Shown here piece after piece: positions 8,103 through 20,046 of a DNA stretch of 64,000 nucleotides. Origin of the DNA: Gammaproteobacteria bacterium. GTDB taxonomy: Bacteria; Pseudomonadota; Gammaproteobacteria; HK1. Below the pieces are notes generated by a model. The model was not told the origin of the DNA and searched no databases. It worked only from the letters and a program-made list of their open reading frames with translations. Position 1 is the first letter of the stretch. Each line of letters opens with the position of its first letter. The DNA lies in NCBI GenBank assembly GCA_022824305.1, contig JAJEAD010000011.1:186001-250000 (forward strand), in the 5' to 3' direction. A program made the translations under genes and the position numbers.

Positions 8103-9233
8103 CTACGGAGCCAGCGCCTGCGCGAGCGTCGTCGCGTTGTGTCGCATCATGTCGAGGTAGGTCGGCGCGGGACCGTCCGGGCCGGACAGCGCACCGGGAT
8201 AGAGCGTACCGCCGATGACGGCTCCTGTCTCATCAGCGATGCGTTCCAGGAGGCGGGAGTCCGCGATGTTCTCGATGAACACGGCACGAATGCCCAGATC
8301 GCGTATCTGGAGAATGAGGCGGGCGACATCCTGTGCGGACACCTCCGACTCGGTGCTGACCCCCTGCGGCGCAATGAAGCTCAGCCCGTAGTCGTGACCG
8401 AAGTACTGGAACGCGTCGTGGGAGGTGACGACGGTCCGACTGCCCTCGGGAAGCCCGGCGACAAGCTCGTGGATCTCCGCGTCGAGCGCCTCGAGCTCGT
8501 CCACATAGGCCGCACGATTCTGATAGTACGTGCCGGCATTGTCCGGATCGACCTTGGACAGCGCCGCGGCAATGTTGTCCACGTACACCGTGGCATGCCG
8601 GAGGCTCTGCCAGGCATGGGGATCGAAGGCGCCATGGTCATGGGCATGGTGATCGTCGTCCCCGGCATGATCGTCGTGCATGGCATGCTCATCGTCCTCG
8701 GCGTGGTCGTCGTGCTCGGCATGCTCGTCGTCCTCGGCGTGGTCGTCGTGCTCGGCATGGTCGTGGTCGCCGTGATCGTCATGCTCGTCGGCGGCCGTCT
8801 CCATGCCGTGGTCATCGTGCTCGGCATGCTCGTCGTGTTCTTCGTCCTCCATGTGTTCGTCGTGGGCGCCGTGCTCGGCAGGAAGAGGCTCGATGCCATG
8901 GGTCGCCACCACCCGGACACCGTCGAACTCCGAAGCGTCGATCAGCCGGTCCAGCCAGCCTTCGAATTCCAGCCCGTTGACGATGAGGACCTCCGCTTCG
9001 CTGACGGCCCGGGCATCGGCAGGGGTCGGTTGGTAGACATGCGTGTCGCCGTCAGGACCGACGAGCGTCGTGACATCGACGTGCTCGCCTCCGACGCGTT
9101 TTGCCATGTCGCCGAGGATCGAGAAGGTAGCGACCACCCGGATCGCTTCGTCGGAGTGTGCGGCGACCGGAGCGGCGAACGCCAGAACGAGGAGAGTGGT
9201 GACGGAATTCAGAATGGCTCTGCGGGTAGGCAT
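8103..9233 (-). CDS. znuA: Zinc ABC transporter substrate-binding protein ZnuA
   Basis: This 376-residue periplasmic zinc-binding lipocalin-unrelated (cluster A-I) protein has a signal peptide (residues 1-25, ending VAAHS). It shows the family ligands GDTHVYQPTP (H65), FDPHAWQS (H206) and a later SHDAFQYFG. Between the first and second ligands, residues 112-200 form an Asp/Glu/His-rich loop with about two dozen histidines, much longer than usual. It includes a perfect 12-residue duplication at residues 160-183. Such loops are thought to gather zinc. It is the last gene of a minus-strand operon after zur, a small membrane protein, znuC and znuB; znuB ends 12 bases before its start. Zur repression is expected. 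Confidence 0.93.
   Translation of the reverse strand: MPTRRAILNSVTTLLVLAFAAPVAAHSDEAIRVVATFSILGDMAKRVGGEHVDVTTLVGPDGDTHVYQPTPADARAVSEAEVLIVNGLEFEGWLDRLIDASEFDGVRVVATHGIEPLPAEHGAHDEHMEDEEHDEHAEHDDHGMETAADEHDDHGDHDHAEHDDHAEDDEHAEHDDHAEDDEHAMHDDHAGDDDHHAHDHGAFDPHAWQSLRHATVYVDNIAAALSKVDPDNAGTYYQNRAAYVDELEALDAEIHELVAGLPEGSRTVVTSHDAFQYFGHDYGLSFIAPQGVSTESEVSAQDVARLILQIRDLGIRAVFIENIADSRLLERIADETGAVIGGTLYPGALSGPDGPAPTYLDMMRHNATTLAQALAP
8634..8900 (-). repeat. Histidine/acid-rich low-complexity loop of ZnuA
   Basis: This stretch encodes residues 112-200 of ZnuA, composed almost only of H, D, E, A and G. At 8685-8756 a 36-bp unit encoding AEHDDHAEDDEH is present twice in tandem. The DNA repeats are recent enough to be nearly identical, so the loop length probably varies between strains by slippage without breaking the frame. 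Confidence 0.8.
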
Positions 9234-13851: not shown

Positions 13852-16800
13852 TCAGTCGCCGGGCTCCGCCGCCGGTACCGTGGACAGGTTGCTGAGATAC
13901 CCCGTCGCGCTCGCGAGCAGGCTCATGACCACCACGGGGCGGTCGGCGGTGACCACCAACTGCCACTTGCCGGCGCCGGTGCCGAGGGCGCCGGTCAGGC
14001 CCTCGGCGTCTCCAGACTCCAGCTCGCTCGCGCTCAACGTCCGGGCCGCGCCCGCGGGCAGGCTGAGCACCACCGCGCTCTCGCCCGCCGCGCCCTGTGC
14101 GTCGATGCCCTCGATGGTGACCTCCGCGGCCTCCGCTCCGGGGTTCACCAGGCGCAGCCGGCTCGCGAGGCTGCGGTTGCGCCCGGGGTTGAAGAAGGGC
14201 ACCCGGTGCTCCTCTCCAACGAGCGCGACGGTGTCGTGCATCGTGGCGAGGAAGCCGTCGGTGGTGAGCACGTAGCCGAGCACCCGGAGGTCGAGCGTGC
14301 TCGAAAGGTCCAGCCGCCAGTCGCCCTCGCCGTCTCCCACGCCTCCCGAGAGGCCCTTGCCCGCGTTGCCCTCCTCGAGATCGGCGGAGCTGAACTGCAC
14401 CGCCTCGTTGGCGCCGATGCTGAGCGTCACCGGGCCGTGGAGGGCGCCTGCGTCGTCGAATGCCTCGATGCGCACCTCTCCCGCCGTGTCGGAGCGGTTG
14501 ACGAGGCGCGTGATGCTGCGCAGCCCCAGGGCGTGGCCCGCGGGTATGACCAGGGGGAGGCGATGCGCGGCCGGGGCGTCGTCCGTGCCCGCCGCCGGCT
14601 CCGGCGCGGTGGACAGGTTGCTCAGGTAGCCGGTCGCGCTCGCGAGCAGGCTCATGACCACGACGGGGCGGGAGGCAGAGACCACCAACTGCCACTTGCC
14701 GCTTCCGGTGCCGAGCGCGCCGGTCAGGCCCTCGGCGTCTCCGGACTCAAGCGCCTGCGCGCTCAGGGTCCGGGCCGCACCCGCGGGCAGGCTGAGCACC
14801 ACCGCGCTCTCGCCCGCACCGCCGCGTGCGTCGACGCCCTCGATGGTCACCTCCGCGGCCTCCGCCCCGGGGTTCACCACGCGCAGCCGGCTCGCGAGGC
14901 TCTGGTTGCGACCGGGGTTGAAGAAGGGCACCCGGTGCCCCGCTTCGCTGCCCGGGACCACGTCGTGCATCGTGGCGAGGAAGCCGTCGGTGGTGAGCAC
15001 GTAGCCGAGCACCTGGAGGTCGAGCGTGCTTTCGAGCTCCAGACGCCAGTCGCCCTCGCCGTCTCCCACGCCTCCCGAGAGCCCCTTGCCCGCGTTGCCC
15101 TCCTCGAGGTCGGCGGAGCTGAACTGCATCGCCTCGTTGGCGCCGATGCTGAGCGTCACCGGGCCGTGGAGGATGCCGTCGTCGTCGTAGGCCTCGATGC
15201 GCACCGTGCCCGCCTCCGCCGAGCGATTGACGAGGCGCGTGATGCTGCGCAACCCCAGGGCGTGGTCCGCGGGGATGACCAGCGGGAGGCGGTGCGCGGC
15301 CAGGTCGTCGCTCACGATCGTCCCGGTCGCCGTGGCATCGCTAATCGTCACGCCAGCGGGCAGGCGCGTCCCCGGCCTCGGGGAGAGCGTCACCGTGAAG
15401 GTCTCGTCGGCCTCCGCCTCGTCGTCCCGGACGGTGGCCACCGCGAAGGTCGCCGAGCGCTGCCCCGGTGCGAGGCGGACAGTCTGCGCCGCCGTCGCGT
15501 AGTCCGCGCCCGCGGTGGCGGTGTCGCCCGTCCCCGACGAGGGCCGCGCCACCAGCTCCAGCGCCTCACCCGGCACCTCGCCGGAGACCCGCACCGTGAA
15601 GCGCACCGCCTCGCCCTCGCTCGCGCTCGCATCGGACACGCCGAGCGCCGTGCCCGAGTCCGGCGGCGGCGGGTCCGCCGGGTCCGTCGCCTCGCCGACC
15701 ACCACCGCGCTCGCCGCGCTGGTCCGGCTCTCCGCGTTGCCCGCGCCGTCGGTGAACGTGGCGCGCACCTTCAGCCGCCGGCCCAGGTCGGTATCGGTGA
15801 CCGCGTAGGCATCGGAGTTTGCCCCGGCGATGTCGTTCTCCACCCCGTCGCGCTCCACCCACACCCACTGCCAGGTGAAGCCCGAGGCGCCGGGCACGCC
15901 GTCCGCGTCGGCCATCGTGCCCCGACCCGCCCGCAGCGTCTGGCCCACCCGGGCCGCGCCCGTGATGACCGGCGCCCCGGTCGCCGGGGTGTTCGCCCCC
16001 GCCGGGGTCGTCGCCGTCGCATCCGCCGACCACGCGCCCTCCGCCGGCGCCTTGACCGTGATCGCGCGCACCCGCGCCGTGTACGAGGTGCCCGCCGCGA
16101 GGCCGGAGACCGGCAGGTAGCTGCGCCCCGTCGTCCTCTGCCGGGCGGTATCGGCGTCGTTCCACACGTGCTCGCTCGACTCCCGCCACTGCACCCGGTA
16201 GCCGTGCGCGCCCGCAACCCGCTCCCACTCGACCAGCACCAGGCCGGGCGAGGCCCGGGCCGTCACTCCCCTCACCTGCCCCGGCGTCACCTCGTCCGTC
16301 GCCGTCACCGGGACCGTCACCACCACGTCGTCGCGCCAGCCGTGCGTCTCCTCGTCAATCGTCAGCCTCAGCGTGGCGTCCTCGTCGAAGTCCACCCCCG
16401 CGTAGGCCAGCACCACCGCCACCCGCGCGCCCGACACCCGCTCGACCCGCTCCACCCACACCGGCACGCCCTGCACCCGGAAGCGGTACCTGGGCACAGC
16501 AAGCGCCCACTCCGCGCCCTCCAGCTCCACCGTGAGCACCGCCTCGTTCAGGCTCTGCTCGGTCAGCGGTGAGGGGGCGGTGGCCGACAGCCTGGCGCCG
16601 AAGGCCGGCGTCCTCGCCGTGCGCCCGGCCGAGGCCGCACCGTCGGGCGCGCGGGCCTTCAGGGCGGTCACCGTGACCGTGTAGTCCGTGCCCGGCGCGA
16701 GGTACTGGATCACGTGGCGCGTGCTCTCGCCGCGGGCGGCGCTGCTGCTGAGGCCGCCCGCGCCGGGCGGCGTCCACGACACCCGGTAGCCCGTCGCCCC

Positions 16801-19302
16801 CGGCACCGCGTCCCAGTCCGCCTCGATGCGTTGCGGACCCGGCGTGAGCCGCACGCCCTGCACCCGTGCCGGCGCCGCCTCGACCACCGCCGCCACGCCC
16901 ACCGTCGCGGTGAACGCCTCCGCCTCGCTGTGCGCCGAGCCCGCGATGGCGAGGCGCAGCGTCCTGCCCGCGTCGAAGTCCGTGGCCGGGTCGTCGCCGT
17001 CGAAATCGAGCGTCACCGTCGCCCGTGAGCCCGTCTCGCGCGTCACCGCGCGCACCGACGCGCCGGCCACGCCGCTCACCGTGAACTGGCCGGTGGAAAG
17101 GCTCGACGCCCAGCTCGCGTTCAGCAGGTCCACCGTCAACCGCGCGCCGTTCAGATTGGATTCCGTCAGTGGAGAGGGGTCGGTGGCGGAGACGATGGCG
17201 TCGGTCGGCCCGGTGGTCGCCCTGGCGATTTCCGAAAAAGCGCCATTGCCGGCCCCCTCGCGGACGGCGGCCACCCGCACTCCGTACTCGGTATCGCCCC
17301 TCAGTCCGTCGATGACGGTCCGCGTCGTCGATCCGCCGGCGACCGTTCGACTGCCGTTATCGTCCGCGCTGAACCATCCGACGAAGTAGCTGTCAGCGTC
17401 GGGCACGGCATTCCAGGTCACCGTGAGGCTGCCCGGCCCGCCGGTCGCGGTCACGCCGGTCACCCGCGCCGGCTTCGCCAGCGTGGTCGCGGTCGCGCGG
17501 GCGGTGAAGGCGCCCGAGCGGTCCGCGTTCCGGGCCCGCACCCGGAACTGGTAGTCCGTGCCACGCGCCAGTCCCGTCACGTCGACGCTGGTGTCAGTGG
17601 TCGTGCGCTCGTTCGGCCAGGTCGCCCCGCCGTCGTCTCGCCCCCACTGGTAGGTGTAGCCGGTGACCGGCTTGCCGCCGGTGGCCGAGGGCGGGTTCCA
17701 TTCGAGGGTGACCTGCCCCCCCTGCACGTCCCTCACCGCAAGCCCCGTCGGCGCGCCCGGCGGCGCGGCCACGGTCCGGATGGCGGACCAGGGGCTGTTG
17801 CCGGCGGCGTTGATGGCCTGCACGCGGAATTCGGAGGCGTCGCTCGTGGACAGGGTGCCCACGACAACCGTAGTCCCAGTGGGGGTGGACGGCCCACCCG
17901 ATAGGGGCCAGGTGCTAGTGCCTACCGGCCTCGCCTCCCACCTGTAGCCGGTGATGGCGCTGCCCCCGTCGTCCGGCACGGTCCAGGACAAGTTGGCTGC
18001 GTTGTTCTGGGTCGGGTGGGCCGTCGCGGTGAGGACCGGCGCGGCGGGCGGGTCGCCGGCGCTCGTCCTCGCCTCGAACTCGCCGGCGCCCGGATGGTGG
18101 AAGCTCGAGCGGTCCTCGTTGTGGGCGCGGTAGCGGAAGTTGTAGATCGTGTTGGGCGCGAGGCCGGCGGACACCGTCACGCTGGTCCCGGAGGTGACGA
18201 TCGTCTCGCCGGTGTGGCCGTCGGTGCCCCAGTCGTTGTTCGAATCCGGCCGCCACTGCACGACGTACTGGGTGATGGGCTTGCCGCCGTCGTCTGAGGG
18301 CGCGGACCAGGACACCGTGACCGCCACCCGGTCCGTCGCCGACGTGAGCGTCAGGTCGCCGAGATTGTTGGGCCGTCCGGCAACCTTGATGACGCCGGAG
18401 TTGGCGCCTTCGCCCTCGCTGTTGACCGCTCGCACCCGGTACTCGTAGGCGACGCTCCACGACGCCTTGTTGTAATTGTGGGTCCGCTGCGTCGGACCCT
18501 TGTCCACCGCCGTCTCCCAGCCGGTCTGACCGATCTCCCGCCGCTCCAGCTTGTAGCCCGTGATGGCGCTGCCGCCGGTGTCGGACGGCTCATTCCACGC
18601 CAGCACGTCGAGGACGTCGCTGGACGTGTCGGTCACGCGCAGATTGCTCGGCGCATTCGGCTCTTTCACGATGTGGAGGCCGGTGAACGTCGCGTAGGGG
18701 CCGCAAGAGGAATCGTCGTCAAATGACCCTACACAGGCACGCACCCTGAAATTGTAGGTTGCGCCAGTGCCGAGGTTTCCAACATGAACTGACGTTATGG
18801 TCGCTGCATAACCATTTGCGTTGACAGCATTCCAGTTCTGCGAAGTACTGATTTGCCGCTGGACGAAGTACCTGCTTATGCCAGCTCCGAGATCCGAGGG
18901 AGCGCCCCAACTAACAGTCGCCGAGGTACTGGAGCTAACGCTCGCGCTAATATTTGTGGGTTCAGAAGGAACATTGACCTGCGCCTCGGCCACCGGCGCA
19001 AAGGCGAGCAGCGCGAACGTCGCGAAGAGGACGGCGCCCGCCGCGCGGCGGGCGAGGGCGGCTACGGAGCGGGAGCGGTAATCCCGGTTCCGGTGCGGGG
19101 GAGGCGCCCGGCTGCCATGGCGGTCCCGGCCCTCGGTATCACCGCGGCCGGATGCGTTCGGAAGGTCGGGATGCGACCGGCGGCGCGGACGCAGGAGTGG
19201 CGCTCGGCGCTCGGCGCTCGGCGCTCGGCGCTCGGCGCTCGGCGCTCGGCGCTCGGCGCTCGGCGCTCGGCGCTCGGCGCTCGGCGCTCTTAATTGTAAC
19301 AA
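13852..19302 (-). CDS. Giant secreted multidomain protein (FN3, Calx-beta, duplicated C-terminal domain)
   Basis: This is a protein of about 1,800 residues. After a hydrophobic signal sequence (AVLFATFALLAF, cleavage near VAEAQ, codons about 19050-19000) come eight fibronectin type III modules. Two unclassified beta-rich modules, each opening with SATxPSPLTE, are interleaved with the last ones. Then follow an Ig-like module (VITGAARVGQTLRA), a Calx-beta domain (ASEGEAVRFTVRVSG...ADETFTVTLS) and two near-identical 243-residue C-terminal domains. It is probably an exported adhesion or surface protein. The start is unresolved: in-frame ATG 19485 and TTG 19323/19302 all lie upstream of a 13-copy 7-bp repeat, and no ATG, GTG or TTG lies in frame between the repeat and the signal sequence. 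The best-placed ATGs (19393 and 19118) are out of frame. The coordinate given is the last conventional in-frame codon. Confidence 0.75.
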   Translation of the reverse strand: MLQLRAPSAERRAPSAERRAPSAERRAPSAERRAPLLRPRRRSHPDLPNASGRGDTEGRDRHGSRAPPPHRNRDYRSRSVAALARRAAGAVLFATFALLAFAPVAEAQVNVPSEPTNISASVSSSTSATVSWGAPSDLGAGISRYFVQRQISTSQNWNAVNANGYAATITSVHVGNLGTGATYNFRVRACVGSFDDDSSCGPYATFTGLHIVKEPNAPSNLRVTDTSSDVLDVLAWNEPSDTGGSAITGYKLERREIGQTGWETAVDKGPTQRTHNYNKASWSVAYEYRVRAVNSEGEGANSGVIKVAGRPNNLGDLTLTSATDRVAVTVSWSAPSDDGGKPITQYVVQWRPDSNNDWGTDGHTGETIVTSGTSVTVSAGLAPNTIYNFRYRAHNEDRSSFHHPGAGEFEARTSAGDPPAAPVLTATAHPTQNNAANLSWTVPDDGGSAITGYRWEARPVGTSTWPLSGGPSTPTGTTVVVGTLSTSDASEFRVQAINAAGNSPWSAIRTVAAPPGAPTGLAVRDVQGGQVTLEWNPPSATGGKPVTGYTYQWGRDDGGATWPNERTTTDTSVDVTGLARGTDYQFRVRARNADRSGAFTARATATTLAKPARVTGVTATGGPGSLTVTWNAVPDADSYFVGWFSADDNGSRTVAGGSTTRTVIDGLRGDTEYGVRVAAVREGAGNGAFSEIARATTGPTDAIVSATDPSPLTESNLNGARLTVDLLNASWASSLSTGQFTVSGVAGASVRAVTRETGSRATVTLDFDGDDPATDFDAGRTLRLAIAGSAHSEAEAFTATVGVAAVVEAAPARVQGVRLTPGPQRIEADWDAVPGATGYRVSWTPPGAGGLSSSAARGESTRHVIQYLAPGTDYTVTVTALKARAPDGAASAGRTARTPAFGARLSATAPSPLTEQSLNEAVLTVELEGAEWALAVPRYRFRVQGVPVWVERVERVSGARVAVVLAYAGVDFDEDATLRLTIDEETHGWRDDVVVTVPVTATDEVTPGQVRGVTARASPGLVLVEWERVAGAHGYRVQWRESSEHVWNDADTARQRTTGRSYLPVSGLAAGTSYTARVRAITVKAPAEGAWSADATATTPAGANTPATGAPVITGAARVGQTLRAGRGTMADADGVPGASGFTWQWVWVERDGVENDIAGANSDAYAVTDTDLGRRLKVRATFTDGAGNAESRTSAASAVVVGEATDPADPPPPDSGTALGVSDASASEGEAVRFTVRVSGEVPGEALELVARPSSGTGDTATAGADYATAAQTVRLAPGQRSATFAVATVRDDEAEADETFTVTLSPRPGTRLPAGVTISDATATGTIVSDDLAAHRLPLVIPADHALGLRSITRLVNRSAEAGTVRIEAYDDDGILHGPVTLSIGANEAMQFSSADLEEGNAGKGLSGGVGDGEGDWRLELESTLDLQVLGYVLTTDGFLATMHDVVPGSEAGHRVPFFNPGRNQSLASRLRVVNPGAEAAEVTIEGVDARGGAGESAVVLSLPAGAARTLSAQALESGDAEGLTGALGTGSGKWQLVVSASRPVVVMSLLASATGYLSNLSTAPEPAAGTDDAPAAHRLPLVIPAGHALGLRSITRLVNRSDTAGEVRIEAFDDAGALHGPVTLSIGANEAVQFSSADLEEGNAGKGLSGGVGDGEGDWRLDLSSTLDLRVLGYVLTTDGFLATMHDTVALVGEEHRVPFFNPGRNRSLASRLRLVNPGAEAAEVTIEGIDAQGAAGESAVVLSLPAGAARTLSASELESGDAEGLTGALGTGAGKWQLVVTADRPVVVMSLLASATGYLSNLSTVPAAEPGD
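13855..15300 (-). repeat. Tandem duplication of a 729-bp domain in the giant gene
   Basis: Bases 15300-14572 and 14571-13855 encode two copies of one domain, each starting AAHRLPLVIPA(D/G)HALGLRSITRLV and ending VVMSLLASATGYLSNLST. The period is exactly 729 bp (243 codons). The copies differ at scattered positions only, indicating a fairly recent duplication or ongoing gene conversion. The domain matches no named family that I recognise. Confidence 0.85.
19199..19289. repeat. Heptanucleotide array (GGCGCTC) x13
   Basis: Thirteen perfect copies of GGCGCTC fill 91 bases without interruption. On the minus strand the unit is GAGCGCC, read in the giant gene's frame as (PSAERRA)n. Because 7 is not a multiple of 3, each gain or loss of one unit shifts the reading frame, the hallmark of a contingency (phase-variable) locus. 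Confidence 0.95.
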
Positions 19303-19390
19303 CGCGCGAGTGCGTGCTTGCAACGGTCGGAGACGATGTGAGGCCTGGAGCCGCCCCGCTCTGTGGCTTGTTGCCGAAGTGGTCTCCGAA

Positions 19391-19404
19391 CATGGAATCC
19401 TCCC
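19391..19404 (-). promoter_or_regulatory. Strong Shine-Dalgarno and ATG upstream of the heptamer array
   Basis: On the minus strand GGGAGG (19404-19399) is followed after five bases by ATG at 19393. This is the best initiation signal upstream of the giant gene. The frame it opens (MFGDHFGNKPQSG...) runs through the array but is one frame off from the giant protein and stops at 19139 after 84 codons. Deleting one heptamer would join the two frames. Confidence 0.5.
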
Positions 19405-19575
19405 GCACTTGCAACACCCGAGGCGGACGCATCGGCTTCCGCCGCCCTCGGCGAAGCCGCGCGGGCGCAGGGTCCGGCGCGGCATCTCCGGCTGCCGGAC
19501 CGAGACATTCCGCTTCGTCGAGCCGGCAAACCCGAATCGGCGGAACTATAGGAAACTACGTGTTAAATGTGTGTG

Positions 19576-19604: not shown

Positions 19605-19760
19605 TAAATTCTTCGTCAATCTTCCTCTCGGCGCGGCGCACCGCGGTCTCGATGCCCGGGTGAGCCGCGATGCGTGCCGAACCAGAGAGGGGGCAGCCTT
19701 GACGCGCTGCGTCACGCCCCGGAGTCGTCCGCCATTCGCATCTCGGCGGCGCGTGAGGAG

Positions 19761-20046
19761 GCACATGTCGCGATCCCGACCTCCGACGAGGGCCCGGGCC
19801 TGGCACCGGAGCGCCTCGCGAACCCATTCCGCAAGCACGCCGCCCCTGGTGCCGGCGGGCAGGAGGGCACGAGGCCGGGCTACGGCCTGGGCCTCGTTAC
19901 ATTCAAGCCCCTCTCGCCGACCGAGCTCACCGCGCGGGTGCGCACGGCGCTACGCAGGCGCAAGAGTCCCGCTCCCTTCGCGCCCGGCCTTCGTCTTCAA
20001 CCACCGCAGCGTCGGATACCGCATGCCGAACTCGGCCGAGCGATAG
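19761..20046 (+). pseudogene. Remnant of a sensor kinase/response regulator pair
   Basis: Short pieces of two-component proteins can be read here in broken frames. DEGPGLAPERLANPFRKH followed by GYGLGLVTF resembles the ATP-binding G boxes of a histidine kinase. KPLSPTELTARVRTALRRR resembles the end of an OmpR/KdpE receiver domain. After a frame change FVFNHRSVGYRMPNS resembles the end of a winged-helix output domain. The order kinase, receiver, effector is right but most of each protein is missing, so this is a decayed, internally deleted gene pair. A KdpDE-like origin is a guess. No functional start is visible. Confidence 0.45.

Follow-up and report, generated by a model that had tools for sequence, protein, structure and literature searches.

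A heptamer tract at the 5′ end of a giant secreted protein gene of an uncultured bacterium and its possible role in expression

Described heptamer systems and the present locus

Most of the well-studied contingency tracts come from a handful of pathogens. In Haemophilus influenzae, the hmw1A and hmw2A genes carry (ATCTTTC)n tracts, strains vary, and in reporter studies more copies result in less mRNA and protein; in hmw1A, the −10 box overlaps the first heptamer and the P2 transcript has the array in its 5′ UTR (PMC8262952). The (AAGACTC)n array of neuO in E. coli K1, by contrast, lies within sequence proven to be coding, in the gene for an enzyme carried by a phage, and ranges from 3 to 53 copies between strains (PMC13001214). 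Finally, Xanthomonas and Nostoc possess numerous heptameric arrays (GGGAATC / GGGGAYT) which are not tied to surface genes (PMC4692102).

The tract described here is located in a 64,000-nucleotide stretch of DNA (the window, to which all unlabelled coordinates refer) from a genome of 5.0 Mb in 101 contigs, of which 744 kb were sampled for genome-wide scans. Positions 19199–19289 consist of 13 perfect head-to-tail copies of GGCGCTC (13.0 copies, 100% matches), i.e. GAGCGCC on the gene strand, which is the minus strand for all features of this locus. Both this count and the PSAERRA sequence encoded by the array if translated are as stated in the original prediction. With hmw1A/hmw2A, the locus has in common a 7-bp array in front of a giant secreted protein, the existence of two paralogous array loci and a putative −10 box next to the array, which would place the array in the 5′ UTR; the layout of the array region is strikingly like that of hmw1A. 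In contrast to hmw1A/hmw2A, the promoter is a sequence match only, the repeat unit is a GC-rich hairpin and the 13-unit copy has no start codon behind the array. The resemblance to neuO lies in the 7-bp units, which would produce heptapeptide repeats if translated and permit a full-length product only when the count is right modulo 3, whereas coding of the leader that precedes the GGCGCTC array is not supported. Like the Xanthomonas and Nostoc arrays, these are intergenic and possibly structure-forming heptamers, but GGCGCTC arrays occur at two sites of the genome, each before a giant secreted protein.

The giant protein, its paralogues and the history of the tract

The gene downstream of the array (13852–19068) specifies a protein of about 1738 amino acids, counted from the signal peptide, with eight FN3 domains, one Calx-beta domain and two C-terminal modules, in line with the giant FN3/Calx-beta protein originally proposed. 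The signal peptide (SVAALARRAAGAVLFATFALLAFAPVAEA; 18982–19068) was recognized by inspection, and it is only from here onward that the coding signal rises. Between the two C-terminal modules dN/dS is 0.38; in comparison with paralogues it is 0.28–0.32 for the first copy (14602–15297) and 0.26–0.34 for the second (13873–14568), and by this measure of 0.26–0.34 overall the modules are under purifying selection. The second copy is predicted to be beta-rich (pLDDT 94.7), and searches with the module yielded neither a confident structural match over the full length nor a sequence match in PDB. An autotransporter barrel at the C-terminus was also considered, but is not supported, the prediction for the module being a small pair of beta-rich domains. 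By its domains, the protein may be surface-located and may act in adhesion. Sponge-associated genomes show an enrichment of FN3 domains (PMC8163846), and a clear case of a contingency tract before FN3-domain proteins in an uncultured lineage would suggest that bacteria of this kind also switch host- or surface-facing proteins. Beside the signal peptide, an 18-codon ATG frame ending with TAG (19118–19062, minus strand) is present in both array copies (MAAGRLPRTGTGITAPAP / MPAGGLPRTSTGTIAPAP) and may be due to chance.

Paralogues sharing the C-terminal module are clustered on contig C4 and are also found on C22, C92 and C6 as well as elsewhere on C98. Three copies on C4 are informative about the 5′ region. 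The C4 47.8k paralogue has the entire 5′ region in common with the 13-unit gene at about 78–80% identity, including its own array of nine units at the matching place before a giant gene; in the C4 58k paralogue the upstream region is present, followed by no more than about two imperfect units, and the C4 14k paralogue shares only the post-array part. In addition, the giant C4 58k paralogue has ATA where a neighbouring paralogue has its ATG start (L039 16110–16070 versus 11432), i.e. its start seems to be lost. Further upstream of the 13-unit array, parts of 19629–19800 recur with 72–87% identity at five other genome sites (upstream of the giant paralogue C98:319315 as well as on C4, C30, C35 and C90), which characterizes this segment as a dispersed intergenic repeat.

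Perfect 7-bp arrays of at least three copies are represented in the 744 kb by the 13-unit array and its paralogous sister alone, and the 13-unit array is therefore not a product of chance. The divergence between the flanks of these two arrays is 15% ahead of the array and 19% behind it, with the array-flanking DNA diverging close to the synonymous rate between paralogues, whereas all 22 units (13 + 9) are perfect. At the divergence of the flanks, 12–15 substitutions would be expected in the 154 bp of the two arrays; the probability of finding none, as is the case, is about 6 × 10⁻⁶ to 2 × 10⁻⁷, assuming half the divergence per lineage. Since the units are all perfect while the flanks differ, both tracts must have been rebuilt by slippage after the duplication, and, with 13 versus 9 units, copies were gained and lost in that time. 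On an evolutionary scale, to which this change in copy number between paralogues refers, a slippage-active heptamer tract 5′ of the secreted giant gene and its sister is thus well supported by sequence comparison, and so is the slippage-prone character originally assigned to the repeat. For each strand of the array, folding predicts a long GC-paired hairpin in which every unit has one mismatch, and a single long hairpin is also predicted for the RNA. Hairpin-forming DNA is a known cause of slippage, and the array hairpins may well favour it here.

Reading frames across the tract and the proposed start

The tandem array is perfect, and its unit is not a multiple of three in length. As in neuO, whether the frame starting at ATG 19393 is open or closed depends on copy number modulo 3. 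With the 13 copies present in the assembly, this frame passes through the array and ends at a TGA (19141–19139) after 84 codons, whereas with 12 or 15 copies it joins the signal-peptide frame. With 11 or 14 copies, a TAA lying directly against the array (19290–19292), which is conserved in the paralogue L039, closes the frame such that zero starts are left. The frame arithmetic of the original prediction, in which 12 copies link ATG 19393 to the giant protein and 13 do not, is therefore correct. Its designation of 12 copies as ON holds in the sense that ATG 19393 then reaches the giant frame, but 13 copies are not strictly OFF, because the signal-peptide frame stays open across the array as far as an ATG at 19485 (19483–19485) and two TTGs; none of these three has a good Shine–Dalgarno sequence, and none usable accompanies the ATG.

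Between the array and the signal peptide of the 13-unit gene there is no in-frame ATG, GTG or TTG. All canonical starts are consequently upstream and lead through the array, and the ordinary start codon with ribosome-binding site that follows the array in the hmw genes is absent. The sequence thus supports the array as the gate to the signal-peptide frame of this gene. At 19132–19134, three paralogous copies have a GTG where the 13-unit gene has GAG; in the C4 47.8k and 14k copies this GTG is in the signal-peptide frame and represents a candidate post-array start, in the nine-unit copy with no clear ribosome-binding site. A simple error of sequencing or assembly that masks a start codon beside the signal peptide was rejected as the sole cause, as the frame layout of the paralogue is identical, with no indels over 194 bases. 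As assembled, the 13-unit gene may use array-crossing translation or a non-canonical start, or it may have lost its start. If translation truly crosses the array, copy number matters.

The proposed start has a good Shine–Dalgarno sequence. GGGAGG (19404–19399) is followed after five bases by ATG 19393 (GGGAGG-ATTCC-ATG, 19391–19404), and a related purine-rich motif together with the ATG is kept at C4 47.8k and 58k; of the ATGs in the 744 kb, only 1.3% are preceded by GGAGG at this distance. Coding properties of the leader point in the opposite direction. In a codon model trained on the source genome and applied to windows of 34 codons, true coding windows score 0.51 on average with a 5th percentile of 0.03, whereas the leader, which runs over 34 codons from ATG 19393 up to the array, scores −0.31 and the two paralogous counterparts −0.51 and −0.40. 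These values fall in the middle of the distribution of open intergenic windows, under the 5th percentile for true genes. When the two array copies are compared, pN/pS of the leader is about 1 (0.166/0.168). The DNA upstream of the array thus behaves as non-coding, which leans against its translation and, in contrast to neuO, against an array inside translated sequence. As the stretch is short, translation of the leader is less likely yet possible. Translation from ATG 19393, as assumed in the original prediction, accordingly did not find support: to the non-coding median of the codon score and the pN/pS of about 1 comes a promoter-like extended −10 box that lies downstream of the ATG, next to the array. 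The distance of the signal sequence, given in that prediction as more than 100 residues from this ATG and as its weak point, indeed amounts to about 115–125 residues.

Leader, frame switch or bystander

The extended −10-like box TGTTACAAT (19293–19301) stops three bases short of the array in the 13- and 9-unit copies alike, and a weak −35-like hexamer, TTGCAA (19318–19323), is found 19 bases before its TACAAT. TGNTAYAAT is rare, with three matches over 1.49 million strand-bases, two of them at the array sites. Since the pattern was picked after viewing the sequence and the two sites are homologous, this evidence is suggestive only. In front of predicted genes, TACAAT occurs seven times in sense and twice in antisense orientation, counts that may include the array sites. 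A strict promoter scan of the array region returned no promoter and did not pick up TTGCAA, and no riboswitch or other known RNA was matched there in Rfam. With the extended −10-like box abutting the array in both copies, the array may be a transcribed leader.

This suggests a tentative picture, the most likely of those considered, to which we assign a probability of about 0.36, in which a hypermutable, hairpin-forming tract acts on expression from the 5′ leader, with promoter, transcription start and effect on expression all being putative. Slipped-strand replication would alter the copy number of the array; transcription would begin at the extended −10 abutting it, such that the array would form the 5′ end of the mRNA, folded into one long GC hairpin; and the number of units would then influence transcription, the stability of the mRNA or the access of ribosomes, in a way resembling Haemophilus hmw1A. 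Two paralogous giant genes with an array at the matching place (13 and 9 units) speak for this leader function, and the weak −35, the negative strict scan and a six-copy heptamer between unrelated genes in a relative speak against it. With no ATG, GTG or TTG behind the array of the 13-unit gene, the leader transcript would need a non-canonical start there.

The translational frame switch, in which translation starts at ATG 19393, runs through the array and yields the giant protein only at 3n copies (9, 12, 15), like the neuO switch of E. coli K1, draws its strength from the exact frame arithmetic, from the good Shine–Dalgarno sequence at an ATG which is kept in three paralogous copies, and from the combination of no canonical start after the array with a TAA that shuts the third phase. 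It is nevertheless unlikely in view of the intergenic-like codon score of the leader, its pN/pS of about 1 and the remote signal peptide, and the nine-unit paralogue is out of phase for its ATG (ten copies would be needed) and has the GTG as a post-array candidate. We therefore place the hmw-like leader slightly ahead of the neuO-like switch; that the array acts on expression in either of these two ways is plausible, with the odds moderately in favour. A serious rival, although rather unlikely when taken by itself, is a neutral GC-rich microsatellite that grew through slippage within non-coding sequence and is without regulatory function. The heptamer can expand without a surface gene, as indicated by GGCGCTC ×6 between ABC-transporter and deacetylase-like genes in another genus of the family (L057 8106–8147), an independent array; hairpins favouring slippage, surrounding DNA that diverges near the synonymous rate, and the Xanthomonas and Nostoc heptamer arrays, for which no regulatory role was seen (PMC4692102), are also in accordance with neutrality. 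On the other hand, both arrays in the genome precede giant secreted proteins, yet by common descent this represents one event, and the array gates the only canonical start codons of the 13-unit gene.

Alternatively, the post-array GTG may have mutated to GAG, leaving a silent or decaying gene with the array as a bystander. GTG in the three other copies and the ATA in place of ATG in the neighbouring C4 58k paralogue would fit such a start loss, but a frame of more than 1700 codons without a stop and C-terminal modules with dN/dS of 0.26–0.34 versus paralogues make a decaying gene very improbable. Improbable too, but less so, is the most far-reaching proposal, i.e. a phase-variable pair of giant proteins with eukaryote-like domains under hairpin heptamer control in an uncultured bacterium, with the array of one copy having become an obligate gate after start loss.

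The array is not a wide family trait, an option that was rejected on the basis of its distribution: among 369 genomes of the class, GGCGCTC ×4 is found in one, the source genome, and among 17 genomes of the family GGCGCTC ×3 is found in two, the other of which has it at unrelated genes. Near related giant proteins of other genomes, no arrays were found in the stretches examined. Within the sampled genome, the only other perfect array in a scan for units of 4–12 bp is CCCGAC (6-bp) ×8 on contig C92 (L091 15330–15377). A repetitive sequence of a different kind occurs elsewhere in the window, where positions 8653–8837 (minus strand, in the open reading frame 8103–9233) encode a His/Asp-rich repeat in a gene for a ZnuA zinc-binding protein that adjoins ABC-transporter and Zur-like genes.
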